Shown here in pieces: positions 13,302 through 49,646 of a DNA stretch of 64,000 nucleotides. The DNA is from Agromyces sp. NDB4Y10 (GTDB lineage: Bacteria > Actinomycetota > Actinomycetes > Actinomycetales > Microbacteriaceae). The notes under the pieces were generated by a model. The model had not been told where the DNA came from. It did not search any database and saw nothing but the letters and a program-made list of their open reading frames with translations. The DNA lies in assembly GCF_001620055.1 (NCBI RefSeq), contig NZ_LQGY01000069.1, forward strand, positions 1 to 64,000, written 5' to 3'. Each line of letters begins with the position of its first letter. Position 1 is the stretch's first letter. The position numbers were made by a program, and so were the translations under genes.

Positions 13302-13967
13302 CCGGCTCGGACCGGTCGTCGTCGGTCCCGGCGGACCGACCTCGCGCGGCCAGGGCGTGCGACTCAGCGCCAGGATGCCGGCCCCGACGAGCAGGATGAA
13401 GGCGGCGATGGCGATGACGTACACCGCGACCCCGCCGTACCCCGCCTCCTGCGCCGGGTTGAGGAACGGGTACGGGTACCAGCCGGCGATCGGACCGCGG
13501 ACCAGGGTGTAGACGACCCAGACGAGCGGGAACAGCGCGATCGTCCAGAGCCGCTGCCACGGGATGGGATGCCGCCCCGGCGCGAGCACCCAGTCGAGCA
13601 GCACGTACAGCGGCGCCCACACGTGCAGGATCTCGTTCGACCACGGCACCGTGGTGGCCTGGTCGAGGGAGATCTGGCGGAGCAGCAGGTTGTAGACGAC
13701 GAACGTGGTGGTCATGTAGGTCACCGCGCAGGCGCGCACGAGGTTGAACCACCCCGGATCCTCCGGGCGGGTGAACGCGATCCACGCGCCGACCGCCAGG
13801 AGCACCGCCGTGAGGGCGTTCGAGAGGATGGTGAAGAAGCTGAAGAAGTTCACGACGAACGCGGCTCGGTCGGGAACCATGCCCCACGACACGACGAACT
13901 GGCCGACGACGGCCACCACGATCGCGGCCGCGACCAGCAGCCTCAGGACCCCGAACAGCGCGCGCAT
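13288..13967 (-). CDS. Pr6Pr-family membrane protein, C-terminus ambiguous
   Basis: From ATG 13967 a protein with about six membrane segments is read (VVNFFSFFTILSNALTAV, GWYPYPFLNPAQEAGYGGV), homologous over its length to the second copy at 48852-49646. GGGAGGGAA upstream is a good ribosome-binding site and a TAGGCT -10 box lies about 30 bases further up. After TPWPREVGP the frame stays open antisense to the hydrolase down to 12507. A one-base shift near 13330 would instead end the protein at 13288, giving a normal length. The short form is reported here because convergent neighbours normally meet this way. Confidence 0.6.
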
Positions 13968-38605: not shown

Positions 38606-40054
38606 ATGGGAACGACCGTCTACGAACGCCGCAGGCCCGCGGCATCCGTCATCGACCGCAGCCTCGCCGACAGCCGCCGCTCGGTCTTCTGGATCGACGA
38701 CCTGCCCGACTCGGCGAAGCCCGAGCGACCCCGGCTCGAGGGTGCGCGCACGGCCGACCTCGCGATCGTCGGCGGCGGCTACACCGGCCTCTGGACGGCC
38801 GTGCTCGCCAAGCACGCGAACCCCGACCAGCGCGTCGTGCTCCTCGAGGGGCGGCGCATCGGCTGGGCGGCATCCGGTCGCAACGGCGGCTTCTGCGAGG
38901 CGAGCCTCACCCACGGCCGCGAGAACGGCCTCAGCCGCTGGCCCGACGAGATCGACGAGCTCGACCGCCAGGGACTCGCGAACCTCGACGCGATCGAGGC
39001 CGCCGAGGCCGAGTTCGGCATGGACTTCGAGTTCGAGCGCAACGGCTCGCTCGACGTCGCCGTCGAACCGCACCAGGTCGAGTGGCTGCACGAGGCCGCA
39101 GCGGATGCCGCGCACCGGGGCGACGACTCCGTCCGCCTGCTCGACGAGCACCAGGTGCGCGCCGAGGTGGACTCGCCCACCTACCTCGCGGGGGTGTGGA
39201 ACACGCGCACGAGCGCCATCCTGCACCCGGCGAAGCTCGCCGCCGAACTCGCCCGCGTCGCCGAGGAGGCCGGCGTCGAGATCTTCGAGCGCTCCCCGGT
39301 GCGGCGCCTCGAGGGCTCCGGTTCGTCCGCGCCCGTCACGCTGCGCACCGAGCACGGCCGCGTCGACGCCGCGCGCGTGGTCCTCGCGACCAACGTGTTC
39401 CCGTCGCTGCTCAAGCGCAACCGGCTCATGACCGTGCCCGTCTACGACTACGTGCTCATGACCGAACCGCTGTCGGCCGAGCAGCAGCGGTCGATCGGCT
39501 GGGCGAACCGGCAGGGCATCGGCGACCTGGCGAACCAGTTCCACTACTCGCGCATGACACGCGACGGCCGCATCCTGTACGGCGGCTACGACGCGATCTA
39601 CCACGCCGGAGGCCGCATCCGCGAGCGCTACGAGGACCGACCCGAGAGCTACGCGAGGCTCGCGAGCCACTTCTTCACGACCTACCCGCAGCTCGAGGGG
39701 CTGCGGTTCACGCACCGGTGGGCGGGCGCGATCGACACGTCGACGCAGTTCACCGCGTTCACGGGGCTCGCGCGCGGCGGTCGGGTGGCGTACGCGTCCG
39801 GGTTCACCGGGCTCGGCGTCGCCTCGACGCGGTTCATGGCCCGGACCATGCTCGACCTCCTCGACGGGCGCGACACCGAGCGCACGCGACTCGAGATGGT
39901 GCGCACGCGGCCGCTGCCGTTCCCACCCGAGCCCGCGGCATCCGTCGGCATCAACCTGACCCGCTGGTCGCTCGACCGCGCCGACCACGACCTCGGCCGG
40001 CGCAACCTGCTGCTGAAGACCCTCGACGCGGTCGGGCTGGGGTTCGACTCGTGA
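38606..40054 (+). CDS. FAD-dependent amine oxidoreductase of the DAO family (PuuB-like)
   Basis: 482 residues. LAIVGGGYTGLWTAVLAKH is the FAD-binding GxGxxG region and IGWAASGRNGGFCEAS is the DAO-family segment that follows. RWAGAIDTSTQFTAFTGLA and YASGFTGLGVASTRF close the FAD site. The family oxidises secondary amines such as gamma-glutamylputrescine. The promoter element shared with potADBC supports a role in polyamine breakdown. A cupin gene overlaps its stop (GTGA). Precise substrate is not determined. Confidence 0.83.
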   Translation: MGTTVYERRRPAASVIDRSLADSRRSVFWIDDLPDSAKPERPRLEGARTADLAIVGGGYTGLWTAVLAKHANPDQRVVLLEGRRIGWAASGRNGGFCEASLTHGRENGLSRWPDEIDELDRQGLANLDAIEAAEAEFGMDFEFERNGSLDVAVEPHQVEWLHEAAADAAHRGDDSVRLLDEHQVRAEVDSPTYLAGVWNTRTSAILHPAKLAAELARVAEEAGVEIFERSPVRRLEGSGSSAPVTLRTEHGRVDAARVVLATNVFPSLLKRNRLMTVPVYDYVLMTEPLSAEQQRSIGWANRQGIGDLANQFHYSRMTRDGRILYGGYDAIYHAGGRIRERYEDRPESYARLASHFFTTYPQLEGLRFTHRWAGAIDTSTQFTAFTGLARGGRVAYASGFTGLGVASTRFMARTMLDLLDGRDTERTRLEMVRTRPLPFPPEPAASVGINLTRWSLDRADHDLGRRNLLLKTLDAVGLGFDS

Positions 40055-42402: not shown

Positions 42403-44118
42403 TCACCGCACGCCGCCGCCCCGCCGCACGAGCAACGCGAGGTGCAGCGCCGTCAGCGTCTCGCCGTCGTCGAGGTCGGCGCCCAGCAGGTCGCCGATGA
42501 GCGCGAGCCGCTGGTAGAACACCGACCGCGAGAGGTGGCTCGCCTGCGCCGCCGCCGTGCGGTTGCCGGGATGCGCCAGCATGGCACCCAGCACGTCGAG
42601 CAGGTCGCCGCCGCGGGCGAGGTCGTACTCGACGATCGGCGCGAGCATGCGTTCGCCGAGCTCCTGCAGCCGGTGGTCGTCGCGGAGCGAGGTCACGAGT
42701 CGCACGAGCGGGCGGTCCTCCGCGCGGCGCACCACGAGCCCGCGCGCGGGCCTCGGCGGCGGCGTCGCGGCGAGGTCGAGCGCCTCCTGCACCGAGACGA
42801 GCAGCCCGTCGAGGTCGTCGGCCCGGGAGCCGATCGCGAGCGACGCACGGACCCCGTCCGCCGGTGACCCGGCGTCGAGGGCGAGCCCGAGCGTCCTGGC
42901 CGCCGCGTCGTCGAACGGCGTCCCGGTCGGCAGCGACAGCAGCACCACGCGAACGGATGCCGCGGCGCCTCCGCCCGGCGCCCCACCCTCGATCGCCCGC
43001 CCGCCGAGCGCCCGCGCTGCGGCATCCGCGTCGCCGTCACCGCCGCGACCGGCGAGGGCGAGCCCGTACAGGTCGGACCCGGTGACCGGCAGGCCGGCCG
43101 CCTCGAGCCGTGCGGTCGCCCCGCCCGGCGCGGCGAAGCGCCCGGAGAGCAGGTGCTCGACGAGCCGGCGGCGGCCGACGCGACCCCACGTGTCGTCGTC
43201 GCCGTCCGCGAGCCGGCCGAGCGCGAGCGCGATCGCGCCCTGCTCGAGGACGCTCGTGCGGCCGGCCGGGTGCGCCGGCCCGGGCAGCGCGACCAGGTGC
43301 CCCCAACGGATGCCGCGCGCCTCGACCGGCACGATGAGCCAGGGGTCCGGCCCGCCCCCCGGCGTCCCCGCGCGACGGTGGGCGTCGCGCGAGCGCAGCT
43401 GCCACCCGCCGAGCAGCGCCTCCTCGGCGTCGGGCGGCACGTCGGCCGCCACCACCTCGTGTGCGAGGTTCTCGAGCACCACGGGCGCGTCGAGGGTCTG
43501 CGCGAGCTGCTGCACGACGTAGTCCGCGGGGGCGCCGCGGAGGGCCAGTGCCGTGAACCGCTCGCGGACCTCGTCGCGGGCATGCAGTGCGGTCGTCTGC
43601 TCGGAGATGATGCGGCGGTGCACCGCCTCGGTGAGCGCGACGAACTTCACCTCTCGGTGCAGGGCGACGAGCGCGAGCCCGTGGTCGGCCGCCGCCTGCA
43701 CGACGACGGCCGGCACGTACCGGTAGTGCACGCCGAGCTCGAGGACGAGCCCGGCGATGCCGACGTCGACGAGCTCGGCGACGAATGCGCGGAGCTCACC
43801 CGGCTCGGCGGGCCAGCCCGACCCCGTGGAGAGGAGCAGCTCGCCGCCGACGAGCAGCCGGGCCACGCCCGCGCTGTCGGAGACGTGCACCCAGCGGACC
43901 CGCGCGTCGAGGGCGGTGTCGCCGACGAGCACCTCGGGCACCCCGTCCGCGACCGCCGGAAGCGCGAGGATCTCGGCGACCGTCGGGAGCGCGTCGTCGA
44001 CGGCGAACGCAGGGGCGGCGCGGTCCGACCGTTCCGGACGATCCGTTCGATCGAGTGGATCTTCGCGACGCTCTGGCACCGTCCACCTCGGTTCTTCGCT
44101 GTCAGACTGGGACCACAT
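42403..44118 (-). CDS. PucR-family transcriptional regulator
   Basis: 571 residues. The N-terminal PucR ligand domain is TVAEILALPAVADGVPEVLVGDTALDARVRWVHVSD (in parts), with ELLLSTGSGWP and GIAGLVLELG following. The C-terminal HTH is LLDVLGAMLAHPGNRTAAAQ...SRSVFYQRLALIGDLLG. PucR proteins control purine, amino acid and polyamine/GABA catabolism. It is divergent from the semialdehyde dehydrogenase and aminotransferase genes, which it likely regulates. Start uncertain: ATG 44118 or the in-frame ATG at 44160; no clear ribosome-binding site at either. Confidence 0.85.
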   Translation of the reverse strand: MWSQSDSEEPRWTVPERREDPLDRTDRPERSDRAAPAFAVDDALPTVAEILALPAVADGVPEVLVGDTALDARVRWVHVSDSAGVARLLVGGELLLSTGSGWPAEPGELRAFVAELVDVGIAGLVLELGVHYRYVPAVVVQAAADHGLALVALHREVKFVALTEAVHRRIISEQTTALHARDEVRERFTALALRGAPADYVVQQLAQTLDAPVVLENLAHEVVAADVPPDAEEALLGGWQLRSRDAHRRAGTPGGGPDPWLIVPVEARGIRWGHLVALPGPAHPAGRTSVLEQGAIALALGRLADGDDDTWGRVGRRRLVEHLLSGRFAAPGGATARLEAAGLPVTGSDLYGLALAGRGGDGDADAAARALGGRAIEGGAPGGGAAASVRVVLLSLPTGTPFDDAAARTLGLALDAGSPADGVRASLAIGSRADDLDGLLVSVQEALDLAATPPPRPARGLVVRRAEDRPLVRLVTSLRDDHRLQELGERMLAPIVEYDLARGGDLLDVLGAMLAHPGNRTAAAQASHLSRSVFYQRLALIGDLLGADLDDGETLTALHLALLVRRGGGVR

Positions 44119-44191
44119 CAGCGTACCGACCTGCCGGTCGTTCTGTCCGATTCGCGACATCCGGCAGCACCGCATCCACCGAAGGACCACC

Positions 44192-45745
44192 ATGAGCCTC
44201 ACCGAGACCGCCGCCACCTCGCCCGCCGCGACCGCCGACGTGCCCCACCTCGGGCACTGGATCGACGGCGCGCTGCGCCCCTCCACCTCCGGCCGGACCG
44301 CGCCCGTGTACAACCCCGCCACCGGCGCCGTGCAGGCGGAGGTCGCGCTCGCCGACCGGGCCGAGATCGACGAGGCGATCGCCTCCGCGCAGCGCGGCTA
44401 CGAGGTCTGGAGCCGCTACTCGATCGCGAAGCGCCAGAGCGTGCTGTTCGCGTTCCGGGAGCTGCTCAACGCGCGGAAGGGCGAGCTCGCCGCGATCATC
44501 ACCGCCGAGCACGGCAAGGTGCTCTCCGACGCGATGGGCGAGATCCTCCGCGGCCAGGAGGTCGTCGAGCTCGCCACCGGCTTCCCGCACCTCATCAAGG
44601 GCGCCTTCTCCGAGAACGCCTCGTCGGGCATCGACGTCTACTCGCTGAAGCAGCCGCTCGGCGTGGTCGGCGTCATCAGCCCCTTCAACTTCCCGGCCAT
44701 GGTGCCCATGTGGTTCTTCCCGATCGCGATCGCGGCGGGCAACGCCGTCGTCCTGAAGCCGAGCGAGAAGGACCCGTCGGCCGCGCTCTGGCTGGCGGAG
44801 CTCTGGAAGGAGGCCGGCCTGCCGGACGGCGTGTTCACGGTCCTCCAGGGCGACAAGCTCGCCGTCGACGGCCTGCTGACCTCGCCGATCGTCCAGTCGA
44901 TCTCGTTCGTGGGCTCGACGCCGATCGCCCAGTACATCTACGAGACCGCCGCCAAGCACGGCAAGCGCGTCCAGGCCCTGGGCGGCGCCAAGAACCACAT
45001 GCTCGTGCTGCCCGACGCCGACCTCGACCTGGTCGCCGACTCGGCCGTCAACGCGGGCTACGGCGCGGCGGGCGAGCGCTGCATGGCCATCTCGGTCGTG
45101 CTCGCCGTCGAACCCGTCGCCGACGAGCTCGTCGCGAAGATCGCCGAGCGCATCGCGAAGCTGAAGATCGGCAACGGCGCCGGCACGGACGGCGTCGAGC
45201 CCGACATGGGCCCGCTCATCACCGACGTGCACCGCGACAAGGTCGCCTCCTACGTCGACATCGCCGAAGCCGACGGTGCGTCCGTCGTGGTCGACGGCCG
45301 CGGCTTCTCGGTCGACGGCCACGAGGACGGCTTCTTCTTCGGCCCGACCCTGCTCGACCACGTCCCGACGTCGTCGCGCGCCTACACCGAGGAGATCTTC
45401 GGCCCGGTGCTCTCGGTCGTGCGCGTCGCGTCGTACGACGAGGGCCTCGACCTCATCAACTCGGGCCGGTTCGGCAACGGCACGGCGATCTTCACCAACG
45501 ACGGCGGTGCGGCCCGCCGCTTCCAGAACGAGGTGGAGGTCGGCATGGTCGGCATCAACGTCCCGATCCCGGTGCCGGTCGCCTACCACTCGTTCGGCGG
45601 ATGGAAGCAGTCGCTCTTCGGCGACAGCAAGGCCTACGGCGTGCACGGCTTCGACTTCTTCACGCGCGAGAAGGCCGTCACCAGCCGGTGGCTCGACCCG
45701 GCCACCCACGGCGGCATCAACCTCGGCTTCCCGCAGAACCACTGA
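44192..45745 (+). CDS. mmsA: CoA-acylating methylmalonate/malonate-semialdehyde dehydrogenase
   Basis: 517 residues. GVISPFNFPAMVPMWFFPIA is the MmsA version of the aldehyde dehydrogenase motif, and the active-site Cys lies in AGERCMAIS (about residue 297). The usual general-base Glu region reads QALGGAKNHML, also typical of the MmsA clade. It oxidises malonate or methylmalonate semialdehyde to acetyl- or propionyl-CoA. With the downstream aminotransferase it would complete beta-alanine or valine/inositol catabolism. ATG 44192 is next to GAAGGA. A palindromic repeat follows the stop. Confidence 0.9.
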   Translation: MSLTETAATSPAATADVPHLGHWIDGALRPSTSGRTAPVYNPATGAVQAEVALADRAEIDEAIASAQRGYEVWSRYSIAKRQSVLFAFRELLNARKGELAAIITAEHGKVLSDAMGEILRGQEVVELATGFPHLIKGAFSENASSGIDVYSLKQPLGVVGVISPFNFPAMVPMWFFPIAIAAGNAVVLKPSEKDPSAALWLAELWKEAGLPDGVFTVLQGDKLAVDGLLTSPIVQSISFVGSTPIAQYIYETAAKHGKRVQALGGAKNHMLVLPDADLDLVADSAVNAGYGAAGERCMAISVVLAVEPVADELVAKIAERIAKLKIGNGAGTDGVEPDMGPLITDVHRDKVASYVDIAEADGASVVVDGRGFSVDGHEDGFFFGPTLLDHVPTSSRAYTEEIFGPVLSVVRVASYDEGLDLINSGRFGNGTAIFTNDGGAARRFQNEVEVGMVGINVPIPVPVAYHSFGGWKQSLFGDSKAYGVHGFDFFTREKAVTSRWLDPATHGGINLGFPQNH

Positions 45746-45751
45746 CCGCTT

Positions 45752-45831
45752 CGGTGGTCGAGTAGCGCGAAGCGCGTATCGAGACCGTCGCAGGGTCTCG
45801 ATACGGCGCTGGCGCGCCGACTCGACCACCG
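45752..45831. repeat. palindromic repeat family B, complete copy
   Basis: Outer arms CGGTGGTCGAGT (45752-45763) and ACTCGACCACCG (45820-45831) are perfect complements; an inner pair GTATCGAGACC / GGTCTCGATAC (45776-45786, 45794-45804) is also perfect. The 80-bp unit lies seven bases after the mmsA stop. Related pieces are at 54075-54110 and 60341-60400. Confidence 0.85.
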
Positions 45832-45851
45832 GACCCCGAAAGGACCTTCAC

Positions 45852-47282
45852 ATGACCGACACGCTCGTTCCCGAAGCGACGACGGATGCCGCGGACGCGG
45901 CCTCGTACGTCGACCGCCGCGGCACGCGGCATCCGCTGCCCGACGCCGCCGCCGACGCGCAGGTGCGCGCCGACGACCGCGCCCACGTGTTCCACTCCTG
46001 GAGCGCGCAGGCCCTCATCGACCCGCTGCCCGTCGCTGCCGGCGAGGGGTCGACGTTCTGGGACTACCAGGGCAACGCCTACCTCGACTTCTCGAGCCAG
46101 CTCGTGAACCTCAACCTCGGTCACCAGCACCCGGATCTCGTCGCGGCGATCCAGGAGCAGGCGGGCCGGCTCGCGACGATCCAGCCCGCGCTCGCCAACG
46201 ACGTTCGCGGCGAGCTCGCCCGGCGCATCGCCGAGGTCGCGCCCGGCGACCTCGACAAGGTGTTCTTCACGAACGGCGGCGCCGACGCGAACGAGCACGC
46301 GGTGCGGATGGCGCGCGCCGTAACGGGTCGCCGCAAGGTGCTGTCGATGTACCGCAGCTACCACGGCGGCACGGCCACGGCGATCTCGCTGACCGGCGAC
46401 CCGCGCCGCTGGGCGAACGAGCCGAGCGACGGCAGCGTCGTGCACTTCCTCGGGCCGTACCCGTACCGCTCGTCGTTCCACGCATCGAACGAGGCCGAGG
46501 AGACCGAGCGCGCGCTCGCGCACCTCGAGCAGGTCATCACGCTCGAGGGCGCGACCACGGTCGCGGCGATCATCATCGAGACCGTCGTCGGCACGAACGG
46601 CGTGCTCGTGCCGCCGCCCGGCTACCTGCAGGGCGTGCGCGAGCTCTGCGACCGGTTCGGCATCGTCTACATCGCCGACGAGGTCATGGTCGGCTTCGGC
46701 CGCGTCGGCGAGTGGTTCGCGGTGAATCACTTCGGCGTGACGCCCGACCTCATCACCTTCGCGAAGGGCGTGAACTCGGGCTACGTGCCGCTCGGCGGCG
46801 TCGTGATCTCGCAGCGCATCGCGTCGCACTTCGACACCGTGCCGTTCGCCGGCGGGCTCACCTACTCGGGTCACCCGCTCGCGTGCGCGGCGGGCGTCGC
46901 GACGTTCGAGGTGTTCGAGCGCGACGGCATCCTCGAGCGCGTGCGCGACCTCGGCGAGCGCGTCGTCGGTCCGCGCCTGCGCGAGATCGCGGAGCGGCAT
47001 CCGTCGGTCGGCGAGGTGCGCGGACTCGGGCTGTTCTGGGCGATCGAGCTCGTCCGCGACCGGGAGACGCGCGAGCCGCTCGTGCCGTTCAACGCGTCGG
47101 GGGCGGATGCCGCGCCGATGGCGAAGGTCGCGGCCGCGTGCAAGCAGGCGGGGCTGTGGCCGTTCATCCACTTCAACCGCATGCACGTCGCGCCGCCGCT
47201 CGTCATCACCGAGGAGGAGCTCGTGCGCGGACTCGACATCATCGACGCCGCGCTCGACCTGGCCGACGCCGAGCTCGGCTGA
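45852..47282 (+). CDS. class III (omega) aminotransferase
   Basis: 476 residues. PLP fold with FTNGGADANEHAVRMARAVTGRRKVL (in parts), the dimer Tyr-His SMYRSYHGGTATA, the Asp of FGIVYIADEVMVGFGR, and the Schiff-base Lys305 in TFAKGVNSGYVPLGGVV. It transfers an amino group from an omega-amino acid or amine. Directly behind mmsA, beta-alanine, taurine-like or GABA-type donors are likely; beta-alanine to malonate semialdehyde would give MmsA its substrate. This pathway assignment is inference. Confidence 0.88.
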   Translation: MTDTLVPEATTDAADAASYVDRRGTRHPLPDAAADAQVRADDRAHVFHSWSAQALIDPLPVAAGEGSTFWDYQGNAYLDFSSQLVNLNLGHQHPDLVAAIQEQAGRLATIQPALANDVRGELARRIAEVAPGDLDKVFFTNGGADANEHAVRMARAVTGRRKVLSMYRSYHGGTATAISLTGDPRRWANEPSDGSVVHFLGPYPYRSSFHASNEAEETERALAHLEQVITLEGATTVAAIIIETVVGTNGVLVPPPGYLQGVRELCDRFGIVYIADEVMVGFGRVGEWFAVNHFGVTPDLITFAKGVNSGYVPLGGVVISQRIASHFDTVPFAGGLTYSGHPLACAAGVATFEVFERDGILERVRDLGERVVGPRLREIAERHPSVGEVRGLGLFWAIELVRDRETREPLVPFNASGADAAPMAKVAAACKQAGLWPFIHFNRMHVAPPLVITEEELVRGLDIIDAALDLADAELG

Positions 47283-47347: not shown

Positions 47348-48835
47348 ATGGACGCTCGGGGGCCCGCCGGTGGGATGCCGCGGCGCGCGTTCCTCGCGGC
47401 CGCGCTCTCGGGCGCGGCCCTCACGCTCGCCGCGTGCACCGACGGTCGCCCCGATCCCACCGGGTCTCCGGGGCCGACGGGCACGCGCACGTCGACCCCG
47501 ACGTCGACGCCGGGCGGGGTGCCGCAGCCCGTCGCGTTCCGCCGTTCCCGCTGGACCGCCGACCCGTTCGTCCGCGGCGCCTACAGCTTCGACGGCGTGG
47601 GAACCACGGACGACCTGCGCACCGCCCTCGGCGAGCCCGTCGAGGGCCGCCTGGTGATCGCCGGCGAGGCGACCTCGGCCACGGCACCCGGCACGGTCCA
47701 CGGGGCCTACAACGAAGGGCTCCGCGCCGGGCGCGTGATCGCGGAACTCGCCGAGGAGGGCGACCGCGTCGCCGTGATCGGCGCGGGCATCGCGGGGCTC
47801 GCCGCCGCCCGCACGCTCGCCGACCGCGGCATCGACGTGGTCGTGATCGAGGCGTCGGACCGGCTCGGCGGCCGCCTCCACTCGGTCGACGACGACGACT
47901 TCGCCGGGCCGGTGGAACTCGGCAGCCCGTTCGTGTCCGACCTGGCCACGATGCGATCGGTGCTGCGGAGGGCGGCGGTACCGACCCGGCGGTTCACCCC
48001 CGTGCTGGAGGCGCGCACGCCGAACGGCGCCAACCTGGGCACGCCTCCGCCGACCGGCACCGCCGCGATCGCCGCGGCACACGAGTGGGCGCTCGCCCAG
48101 CCGTCGGACGTGTCCCTCACCACCGCGCTCGTCGACTCCGGGGTCGTGCCGCTCCCCGGCGAAGCCGACGACCTCGGGCTCACGCCGACGGACTGGCTCC
48201 GCCACGCCCTGTCGACCGGCATCGAGCCGGCCACCGGGGCGACGGCGACGCGCCTGTCCGCGCAACGCCTCGACCTGGGACGCGTGTGGCGCCCGACGGG
48301 CCAGGTCACAGGCGGGTGGTCGGGGCTCCTCGAGACGCTCGCCGATGGCGTCGACATCGCGGGCGCCAGCGTCGTCACGGACGTGGTCCTCGACGACCGT
48401 GGCGTGGGGTTGCGCCTCGACTCAGGCGAGTCCATCCGCGTGCAGCGTGCCATCGTGACCGCCTCGGTCGGCGTGCTGCGGACCGACACGATCGCCTTCG
48501 ACCCGCCGCTACCGCTCCGCCACCAGCGGGCCGTCTCGCTGCTCGGAATGGGCGCGGTCGACCTCGTCTGGCTCCGGTTCGACACGCCCTTCTGGCGGTC
48601 CGAGACGGATGCCGCGCCGGGCCCCCTCCCCGGGCGCGGCGCGCCCAACGTGCTCACGGTCGTCGGCGAGACGCCGACCGTCGCGGCGTGGCTCGACCTC
48701 GGCGACGATCCGCGGCGGCCGATGCTCGTCGGGGTCCTCGCCGCCGAGCACGCGCGTCGGGTCGCCGCGATCGACGACGACGACGAGGCGCTCGACGTCG
48801 TGCTCGACGCCCTCGCACCGTTCGTCGCGACCTAG
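47348..48835 (+). CDS. flavin amine oxidase with apparent circular permutation, lipoprotein
   Basis: 495 residues. RRAFLAAALSGAALTLAAC is a signal with lipobox Cys30, followed by a Thr/Pro/Ser linker. Then come motifs that in other amine oxidases lie at the C-terminus: RWTADPF (68-74), GEATS (106-110), GTVHGAYNEGLRAG (115-128). Only after them comes the normal N-terminal FAD motif VIGAGIAGLAAA (143-154), E168 and LGGR (173-176). The protein ends at LDALAPFVAT, where the C-terminal FAD segment would usually begin. TAGCCT seven bases before ATG predicts a leaderless mRNA. Substrate is probably an amine; extracytoplasmic. Confidence 0.83.
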   Translation: MDARGPAGGMPRRAFLAAALSGAALTLAACTDGRPDPTGSPGPTGTRTSTPTSTPGGVPQPVAFRRSRWTADPFVRGAYSFDGVGTTDDLRTALGEPVEGRLVIAGEATSATAPGTVHGAYNEGLRAGRVIAELAEEGDRVAVIGAGIAGLAAARTLADRGIDVVVIEASDRLGGRLHSVDDDDFAGPVELGSPFVSDLATMRSVLRRAAVPTRRFTPVLEARTPNGANLGTPPPTGTAAIAAAHEWALAQPSDVSLTTALVDSGVVPLPGEADDLGLTPTDWLRHALSTGIEPATGATATRLSAQRLDLGRVWRPTGQVTGGWSGLLETLADGVDIAGASVVTDVVLDDRGVGLRLDSGESIRVQRAIVTASVGVLRTDTIAFDPPLPLRHQRAVSLLGMGAVDLVWLRFDTPFWRSETDAAPGPLPGRGAPNVLTVVGETPTVAAWLDLGDDPRRPMLVGVLAAEHARRVAAIDDDDEALDVVLDALAPFVAT

Positions 48836-48851: not shown

Positions 48852-49646
48852 CTATCGCCGGTCCGCTCCGACGAGCCACTCGGCGGGCGAACCGGGCGCG
48901 GATGCGGCATCCGCTCGCGCCGCGGCATCCGCTGCTTCGACCTCGAGCCGCCGCCGGTGGATGCGCTGCCGGAGCCCGCGCCGCTCGAGGCGCCGGTGGA
49001 CGGCCACCAGCACCGACGTGAGGGCGACGAAGATGAGCAGCACCATCGCGCAGTACGCGGCCACGCCGCCGTAGCCGCCGACCTGCGTCTCGTCGAGGAA
49101 GAAGTACGGGTACCAGCCGATCTGCCCGCCGCGCAGGAGCGTGTACACGAGCCACACCGAGGGGAAGAGCAGCACGAACCCGATGGTCGACCACGGCACG
49201 GGCGGATTCACCGCGAGGATCGCATCGATGGTCCACGCGATGAGGGCGAGCACGGGCACCACGAAGTGCAGCAGCGTGTCCGACCAAGGGATGTCGAGCC
49301 GGTAGTCGCGGCTCGACGCCTGCGCCGCGATGAGCGCGAACACGACCCCGGAGACGAGGAGGTAGACCGTGACCATCGTGCGGAAGGCACCGAGCCACAC
49401 CGGATCCCGCGGGCGGAACCAGGCGAACCAGGCCGCGACGAGGAGCGTGGCCACGGCGAGCATCGCCGACTGGATGGTGAAGTAGCTGAAGAAGTTCACC
49501 GACGCGAACAGCGGGAAGCGCAGCACGTACTCGTAGTTGCCGACGAGCGCCACGATCTCGAGCACGGCGATGCCGAGCCGGAAGGCGCCCAACCCGCGCC
49601 TCGCGGTCGTCACCCCTGCGGCGGAGCCGGTGACGGTCGCGGGCAT
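48852..49646 (-). CDS. Pr6Pr-family membrane protein, second copy
   Basis: 264 residues, about six membrane segments. VNFFSYFTIQSAMLAVATLL, IPWSDTLLHFVVPVLALIAW and GWYPYFFLDETQVGGYGGV match the gene at 13288-13967 segment for segment. A long basic and Ala/Asp-rich cytoplasmic tail (about 218-264) is specific to this copy. TAACGT six bases before ATG 49646 predicts a leaderless mRNA. Function unknown. Confidence 0.8.
   Translation of the reverse strand: MPATVTGSAAGVTTARRGLGAFRLGIAVLEIVALVGNYEYVLRFPLFASVNFFSYFTIQSAMLAVATLLVAAWFAWFRPRDPVWLGAFRTMVTVYLLVSGVVFALIAAQASSRDYRLDIPWSDTLLHFVVPVLALIAWTIDAILAVNPPVPWSTIGFVLLFPSVWLVYTLLRGGQIGWYPYFFLDETQVGGYGGVAAYCAMVLLIFVALTSVLVAVHRRLERRGLRQRIHRRRLEVEAADAAARADAASAPGSPAEWLVGADRR

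Follow-up and report, generated by a model that had tools for sequence, protein, structure and literature searches.

Does a protein in which the motifs of a flavin amine oxidase stand in the wrong order still fold like its relatives, and does it still oxidize amines? The question is raised by a gene for a permuted flavin amine-oxidase-like lipoprotein of 495 amino acids at 47348..48835 on the forward strand of the window (the whole stretch of 64,000 nucleotides analysed here). The gene is a single frame, open over 495 codons, with M10 (47375) as an alternative start. The first-pass annotation had claimed that the segment with W-x-x-DP, GEATS and GTVHGAYNEGLRA comes before the GAGIAG motif, and we found this segment at residues 69-127, ahead of GAGIAG at residues 145-150. 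The displaced C-terminal segment as a whole spans residues 57-134 (47516..47749, forward strand), includes Y79 and E107, and carries W69, DP73, GEAT, GTVHGAY and GLRA in that order. It is followed by five junction residues, 135-139 (47750..47764, forward strand), which by the model and by the spacing in related sequences lie where the former C-terminal helix meets the former first strand, and then by the former N-terminal Rossmann part and the substrate domain (47765..48832, forward strand), with GAGIAG, E168 and GGR at residues 174-176.

The permuted motif order was borne out by phmmer, by a canonical profile and by the Pfam family PF01593. Compared with the PDB by phmmer, the protein matched in three stretches, all onto the LSD2 chain and in permuted order (58-132 onto 700-774, 139-188 onto 337-384, and 292-479 onto 497-682). 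A profile built from 62 canonical flavin amine oxidase relatives matched residues 57-133 with its tail (profile 349-425, 79.0 bits) and residues 137-479 with its core (profile 3-333, 174.7 bits), and as sequence matches both are far above chance. When residues 137-495 were placed before residues 57-136, one domain resulted, covering profile 5-425 at 272.5 bits; with the signal and tether left between both stretches, the profile matches remained two separate ones. PF01593 scored 181.6 bits (curated cut-off 19.8), with its positions running 369-442, then 1-73, then 178-366 along the protein rather than colinearly. A Pfam search of the same genome found four other PF01593 copies, near end-to-end and in canonical order. 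We looked for a normal tail segment after residue 400, which the annotation had held would speak against permutation, and found none; nor does the window protein contain a second copy of the tail segment anywhere. Among 198 ORFs with a tail hit (from 235 sequences), none has two tails, as a tail-core-tail intermediate would. Furthermore, the tail-first order is common to relatives at 26-68% identity (the 74 other rows of the permuted alignment), 73 of the 75 rows being tail-first by comparison with the canonical profile, and the spacing from A120 to G145 is 21-28 residues across all 75. We are all but certain that the circular permutation in the window protein is real.

An AlphaFold2 model of the window protein, built with the 75 permuted sequences, has a mean pLDDT of 90.5 and a pTM of 0.87, with ten-residue blocks at 93-98 from residue 61 to 410 and later dips to 58 at residues 421-430 and 81 at residues 451-460. 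The modelled helix 117-134 joins strand 140-144 via a short turn. Foldseek matched the model to LSD2, putrescine oxidase, LSD1 and maize PAO, with LSD2 as the best match (E 7.8e-22, TMq 0.60 over 382 columns). In the predicted model the fold is complete despite the permuted order, in agreement with the earlier suggestion that joining the two segments is structurally reasonable, and the lack of FAD-fold closure that would have spoken against it was not found. The segment that closes the FAD domain, normally C-terminal, comes first and leads through a short turn into the normally N-terminal Rossmann strand. The best explanation of sequence and model together is that the gene codes for a flavin amine oxidase fold of the polyamine oxidase/LSD branch (PF01593) that has been permuted in nature.

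The annotation had taken monoamine oxidase or maize polyamine oxidase as the reference enzyme. Polyamine oxidases are indeed near, but the nearest solved proteins by sequence also include LSD2 and spermine oxidase. The fold, FAD motifs and tail segment resemble those of the polyamine and spermine oxidases (maize PAO 1b37, spermine oxidase 7oxl, PAOX 5lae), and in the permuted relative L079 WIHG, the lysine and GSYS all line up with spermine oxidase; unlike these enzymes, the window protein has another segment order and a Tat-type lipoprotein signal, and lacks the pocket W, H and K. The amine oxidase domain of LSD1/LSD2 gave the best PDB sequence and Foldseek matches, the phmmer matches to LSD2 covering its oxidase part only, whereas the window protein is permuted, bacterial and equipped with an export signal. 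LSD histone demethylases have further domains, SWIRM and tower, and the Pfam scan of the window protein lists none beyond the oxidase domain. LSD2, a histone demethylase by its PDB name, also lacks the W and H but keeps the lysine, and the lysine alone is for this reason a strong sign.

We compared conserved residues across three groups of rows, canonical (63), Microbacteriaceae permuted (49) and other permuted (26). G145, G147, G150, E168, R176, G106 and E107 are invariant in all 138 rows; the FAD-contact motifs are present in the window protein, and FAD binding is predicted. The pocket follows another pattern. Canonical relatives conserve five pocket positions (W, H, Y, K and Y). All five residues are kept in 51/63 canonical and 17/26 other permuted rows (Nitratireductor L163 is a relative with an intact pocket) and in 0/49 Microbacteriaceae rows, where 30 rows keep none, 12 keep K and five keep three; pocket residues are lost in most of the Microbacteriaceae clade and mostly kept in permuted relatives outside it. 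The window protein retains Y79 as its sole pocket residue. F195 and S197 (47930..47938, forward strand) stand in place of the canonical W and H, W324 (48317..48319) occupies a position that is Y in most canonical relatives, and L406 (48563..48565) replaces the conserved catalytic lysine equivalent to maize Lys300; the W and Y324 columns are both conserved among canonical relatives. Passages in PMC7576179 and PMC6341606 describe the amino group of the maize lysine as holding a water at flavin N5, and the substrate position as occupied by Glu in maize PAO and by His in the mammalian enzymes. With the K and H correspondence to maize PAO read off the spermine oxidase alignment, the window protein has S197 at the latter position.

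Residue loss is no proof of lost activity. We nevertheless judge it quite probable, from the residues, that classical amine oxidase chemistry has been lost in the window protein, and the earlier description of a working amine oxidase is doubtful and probably wrong, since the catalytic lysine and three of the four other pocket residues are gone. The best explanation, which we hold to be likely, is an FAD protein of permuted amine oxidase fold that is anchored by a lipid and has had its pocket re-tooled. Polyamine oxidation would most likely be lost, and the protein would act as a flavin dehydrogenase or in a redox role on another substrate or partner; a redox role at the membrane is a plausible but tentative proposal. 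Flavin amine oxidases of the NctX/NicA2 type have the canonical segment order, and NctX shares the lipoprotein anchor predicted for the window protein. PMC12272882 describes NctX enzymes as predicted membrane-anchored lipoproteins and as cytochrome c dehydrogenases encoded next to a cytochrome c gene. Cytochrome c is the presumed electron acceptor of these related lipoproteins, which makes a dehydrogenase role reasonable here.

Instead, the protein might be an active enzyme, a permuted and exported oxidase of polyamines or monoamines with a changed pocket, giving H2O2 or feeding the respiratory chain. The high PF01593 score, the intact pocket in the 17 permuted rows outside Microbacteriaceae, the likewise missing W and H of LSD2 and the description of lipoprotein flavin amine oxidases such as NctX (PMC12272882) all agree with it, as do class III aminotransferase and aldehyde dehydrogenase genes directly upstream, which recur in most same-genus loci. 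However, the catalytic K is replaced together with the W, the H and the Y324-position residue, and the aminotransferase cluster was not found beside the gene in 10 other genera; we regard a working oxidase as unlikely. We give the same low weight to a pseudoenzyme, in which FAD would be a structural ligand and the lipoprotein a sensor or scaffold. Loss of the pocket while the FAD motifs are kept is what such a protein would show, and purifying selection fits it as well: as simple counts on GC-rich genes, dN/dS is 0.39 for the window protein (P0001) against L002 and L003 and 0.09-0.39 in 18 other non-identical pairs above 66% identity. Values below 0.4 in these 20 pairs argue against decay. Against the pseudoenzyme, the invariance of the FAD motifs over deep divergence would seem to exceed what a scaffold needs. 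The re-tooled FAD protein remains the reading that we prefer.

The lipoprotein signal proposed by the annotation was confirmed by pattern, since a Tat RR motif and a lipobox are found in all 49 Microbacteriaceae permuted rows. In the window protein, the RR motif, the hydrophobic stretch and the lipobox cysteine are all present: a Tat-type signal peptide runs from R12-R13-A-F to the lipobox L27-A28-A29 (47348..47434, forward strand), followed by Cys30 (47435..47437), the predicted lipidated residue, and by a P/T/S-rich tether of residues 31-56 (47438..47515) with low model confidence to about residue 50. The lipobox cysteine is C30 (LAAC), a small correction to the earlier description. Of the other 26 permuted rows, 18 have RR, 12 a lipobox and 11 both; these patterns are incomplete, with L171 having RR and a different following residue and L075 being cut at its start. 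The permuted proteins of L069, L070, L071, L072 and L195 seem to lack a signal peptide and to begin directly with the displaced segment, and permutation and export are therefore not strictly coupled. The canonical-order row L208, an Actinomycetota MAG, resembles the window protein in RR signal, lipobox and fold and lies near permuted rows in the tree, but its order is canonical, so export may predate the permutation, as far as sequences can tell. We propose that the protein would bind FAD and fold in the cytoplasm before export by Tat, after which Cys30 would be lipidated and the tether would hold the protein on the outside of the membrane. Through the permutation the tether would attach where the tail segment begins and no longer at the first Rossmann strand.

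We asked how widespread the permuted order is. Homologues with the same order, for which the annotation had called, were found in many genomes and are compatible with one origin. Within the genus, 35 of 37 genomes (own included) contain a near-full match in the order of the query, and the remaining two, assemblies of 840 and 810 contigs, contain pieces only. The gene occurs in 60/199 sampled Microbacteriaceae genomes and 26/85 genera (E<=1e-30). Named loci bear out the family: L033, a same-family locus, and Leifsonia sp. L144 do not differ over the rows compared. In the order sample 25/396 genomes match (E<=1e-22), including four outside Microbacteriaceae that are permuted without a clear signal (L069-L072), and in the phylum sample 17/396 match, six of them with canonical proteins (L080, L081, L083-L086). 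A scan of genome collections gave 80 named loci among the matches listed, at least 31 permuted and at least 49 canonical. Going by record titles, the permuted loci among the matches listed include Cryobacterium, Leifsonia, Naasia and Microbacterium within Microbacteriaceae, MAGs of Acidimicrobiales, Acidimicrobiaceae and Ilumatobacteraceae, Alphaproteobacteria (Devosiaceae, Nitratireductor, Hyphomicrobiales and Sphingomonadaceae) and one Opitutaceae MAG, with the reservation that taxon labels of MAGs may be wrong. Plasmids gave no match at E<=1e-20. Viral spread was considered and rejected: 48 viral loci matched, and of the seven with long matches that we examined, six hold both segments, all in canonical order, and the seventh holds the core only.

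In a quick tree of 138 rows (75 permuted and 63 canonical proteins, compared with their segments set in the canonical order), the permuted/canonical label needs 4 changes against a mean of 45.7 in shuffles, and the well-supported branches force just 1. Four canonical rows (L086, L085, L208 and L213) are interspersed with or adjacent to permuted rows, which leaves room for two origins or for a reversion. Several independent permutations, which the 4 label changes of the 138-row tree would allow, are nonetheless rather improbable: on a subset of 59 rows (30 permuted and 29 canonical, without L213), a tree uniting all permuted rows was 4.86 log units better than the free tree and a single permuted grouping was not rejected (AU p=0.58), and the junction spacing is tight at 21-28 residues. 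A single origin is compatible with these sequence data, though not proven. A fusion of two domains, or an artefact of assembly or reading frame, is favoured by nothing except the odd segment order and can be dismissed, as the frame is single, tail and core make one canonical domain with no second tail, and the same order recurs in many genomes; the annotation was right that this is no assembly artefact.

In the open-access literature searched, no report of a circular permutation arising in nature turned up for the flavin amine oxidase superfamily, and the string 'permut' is absent from the main text of PMC7576179. The family provides a natural experiment on whether the position of the termini matters in the flavin amine oxidase fold, with three states to compare (canonical, permuted with an intact pocket, and permuted with a lost pocket). 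Going by the Pfam score alone, one would label these genes as amine oxidases, a doubtful name in the case of the Microbacteriaceae branch.

A Pr6Pr family membrane protein (NF038065) is encoded convergently 16 bp away (48852..49646, reverse strand), a neighbour kept across Microbacteriaceae. A Pr6Pr gene lies within the short flanks at 67 of 68 permuted loci of the same family, on the opposite strand in 66; at L055 the best match is on the same strand, a convergent copy being also present in that genome, and the sole miss, L054, ends just past the permuted gene. The convergent pair is present in 20/20 larger loci (10 from the same genus and 10 from other genera), and Pr6Pr occurs in 11/13 further named Microbacteriaceae loci; L149 has it on the same strand, and L152 and L175 lack it nearby. 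It is absent from all of L069-L086. Since Pr6Pr genes are common in the family (168/199 sampled genomes), adjacency and not presence is the signal, and this adjacency may reflect old synteny rather than function. The membrane protein could possibly be a partner of the flavin protein, a role that we put forward with some hesitation. The pairing is still a lead on the Pr6Pr membrane family: a full-text literature search found no paper on it, a Pfam search assigned the protein no family, and its model (pLDDT 91.6) has no PDB match at E<=0.001. An identity as an AIG1/ADTRP-like hydrolase was dropped after Pfam gave no family, the likeness being confined to a conserved Thr and His. The fullest reading, in which one ancient natural permutation gave a mostly Tat-exported family (chiefly Actinomycetota, also Alphaproteobacteria and Verrucomicrobiota) whose Microbacteriaceae branch is lipid-anchored, non-amine and acting with Pr6Pr, is doubtful as a whole.

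At 18 permuted loci outside the Microbacteriaceae clade there is no convincing conserved neighbour; what recurs is the permuted gene, ORFs in the reverse frame and clusters from two similar MAGs. Upstream of the window gene, positions 42403-47282 encode a PucR regulator (reverse strand), an MMSDH-type aldehyde dehydrogenase and a class III aminotransferase (both forward strand). All three are found in 8/10 same-genus loci, the aminotransferase in 9/10, and none of them in 10 loci of other genera (six window genes tested). Another FAD oxidoreductase, of the DAO family, is encoded at 38606-40054 and falls short of the cut-off set for a model of a putative aminophosphonate oxidoreductase. The whole genome has three Pr6Pr matches, and a second Pr6Pr gene lies on the same contig about 35 kb before the first (13356-13847, reverse strand). 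Loci L230 and L228 each carry two Pr6Pr genes near the permuted gene.
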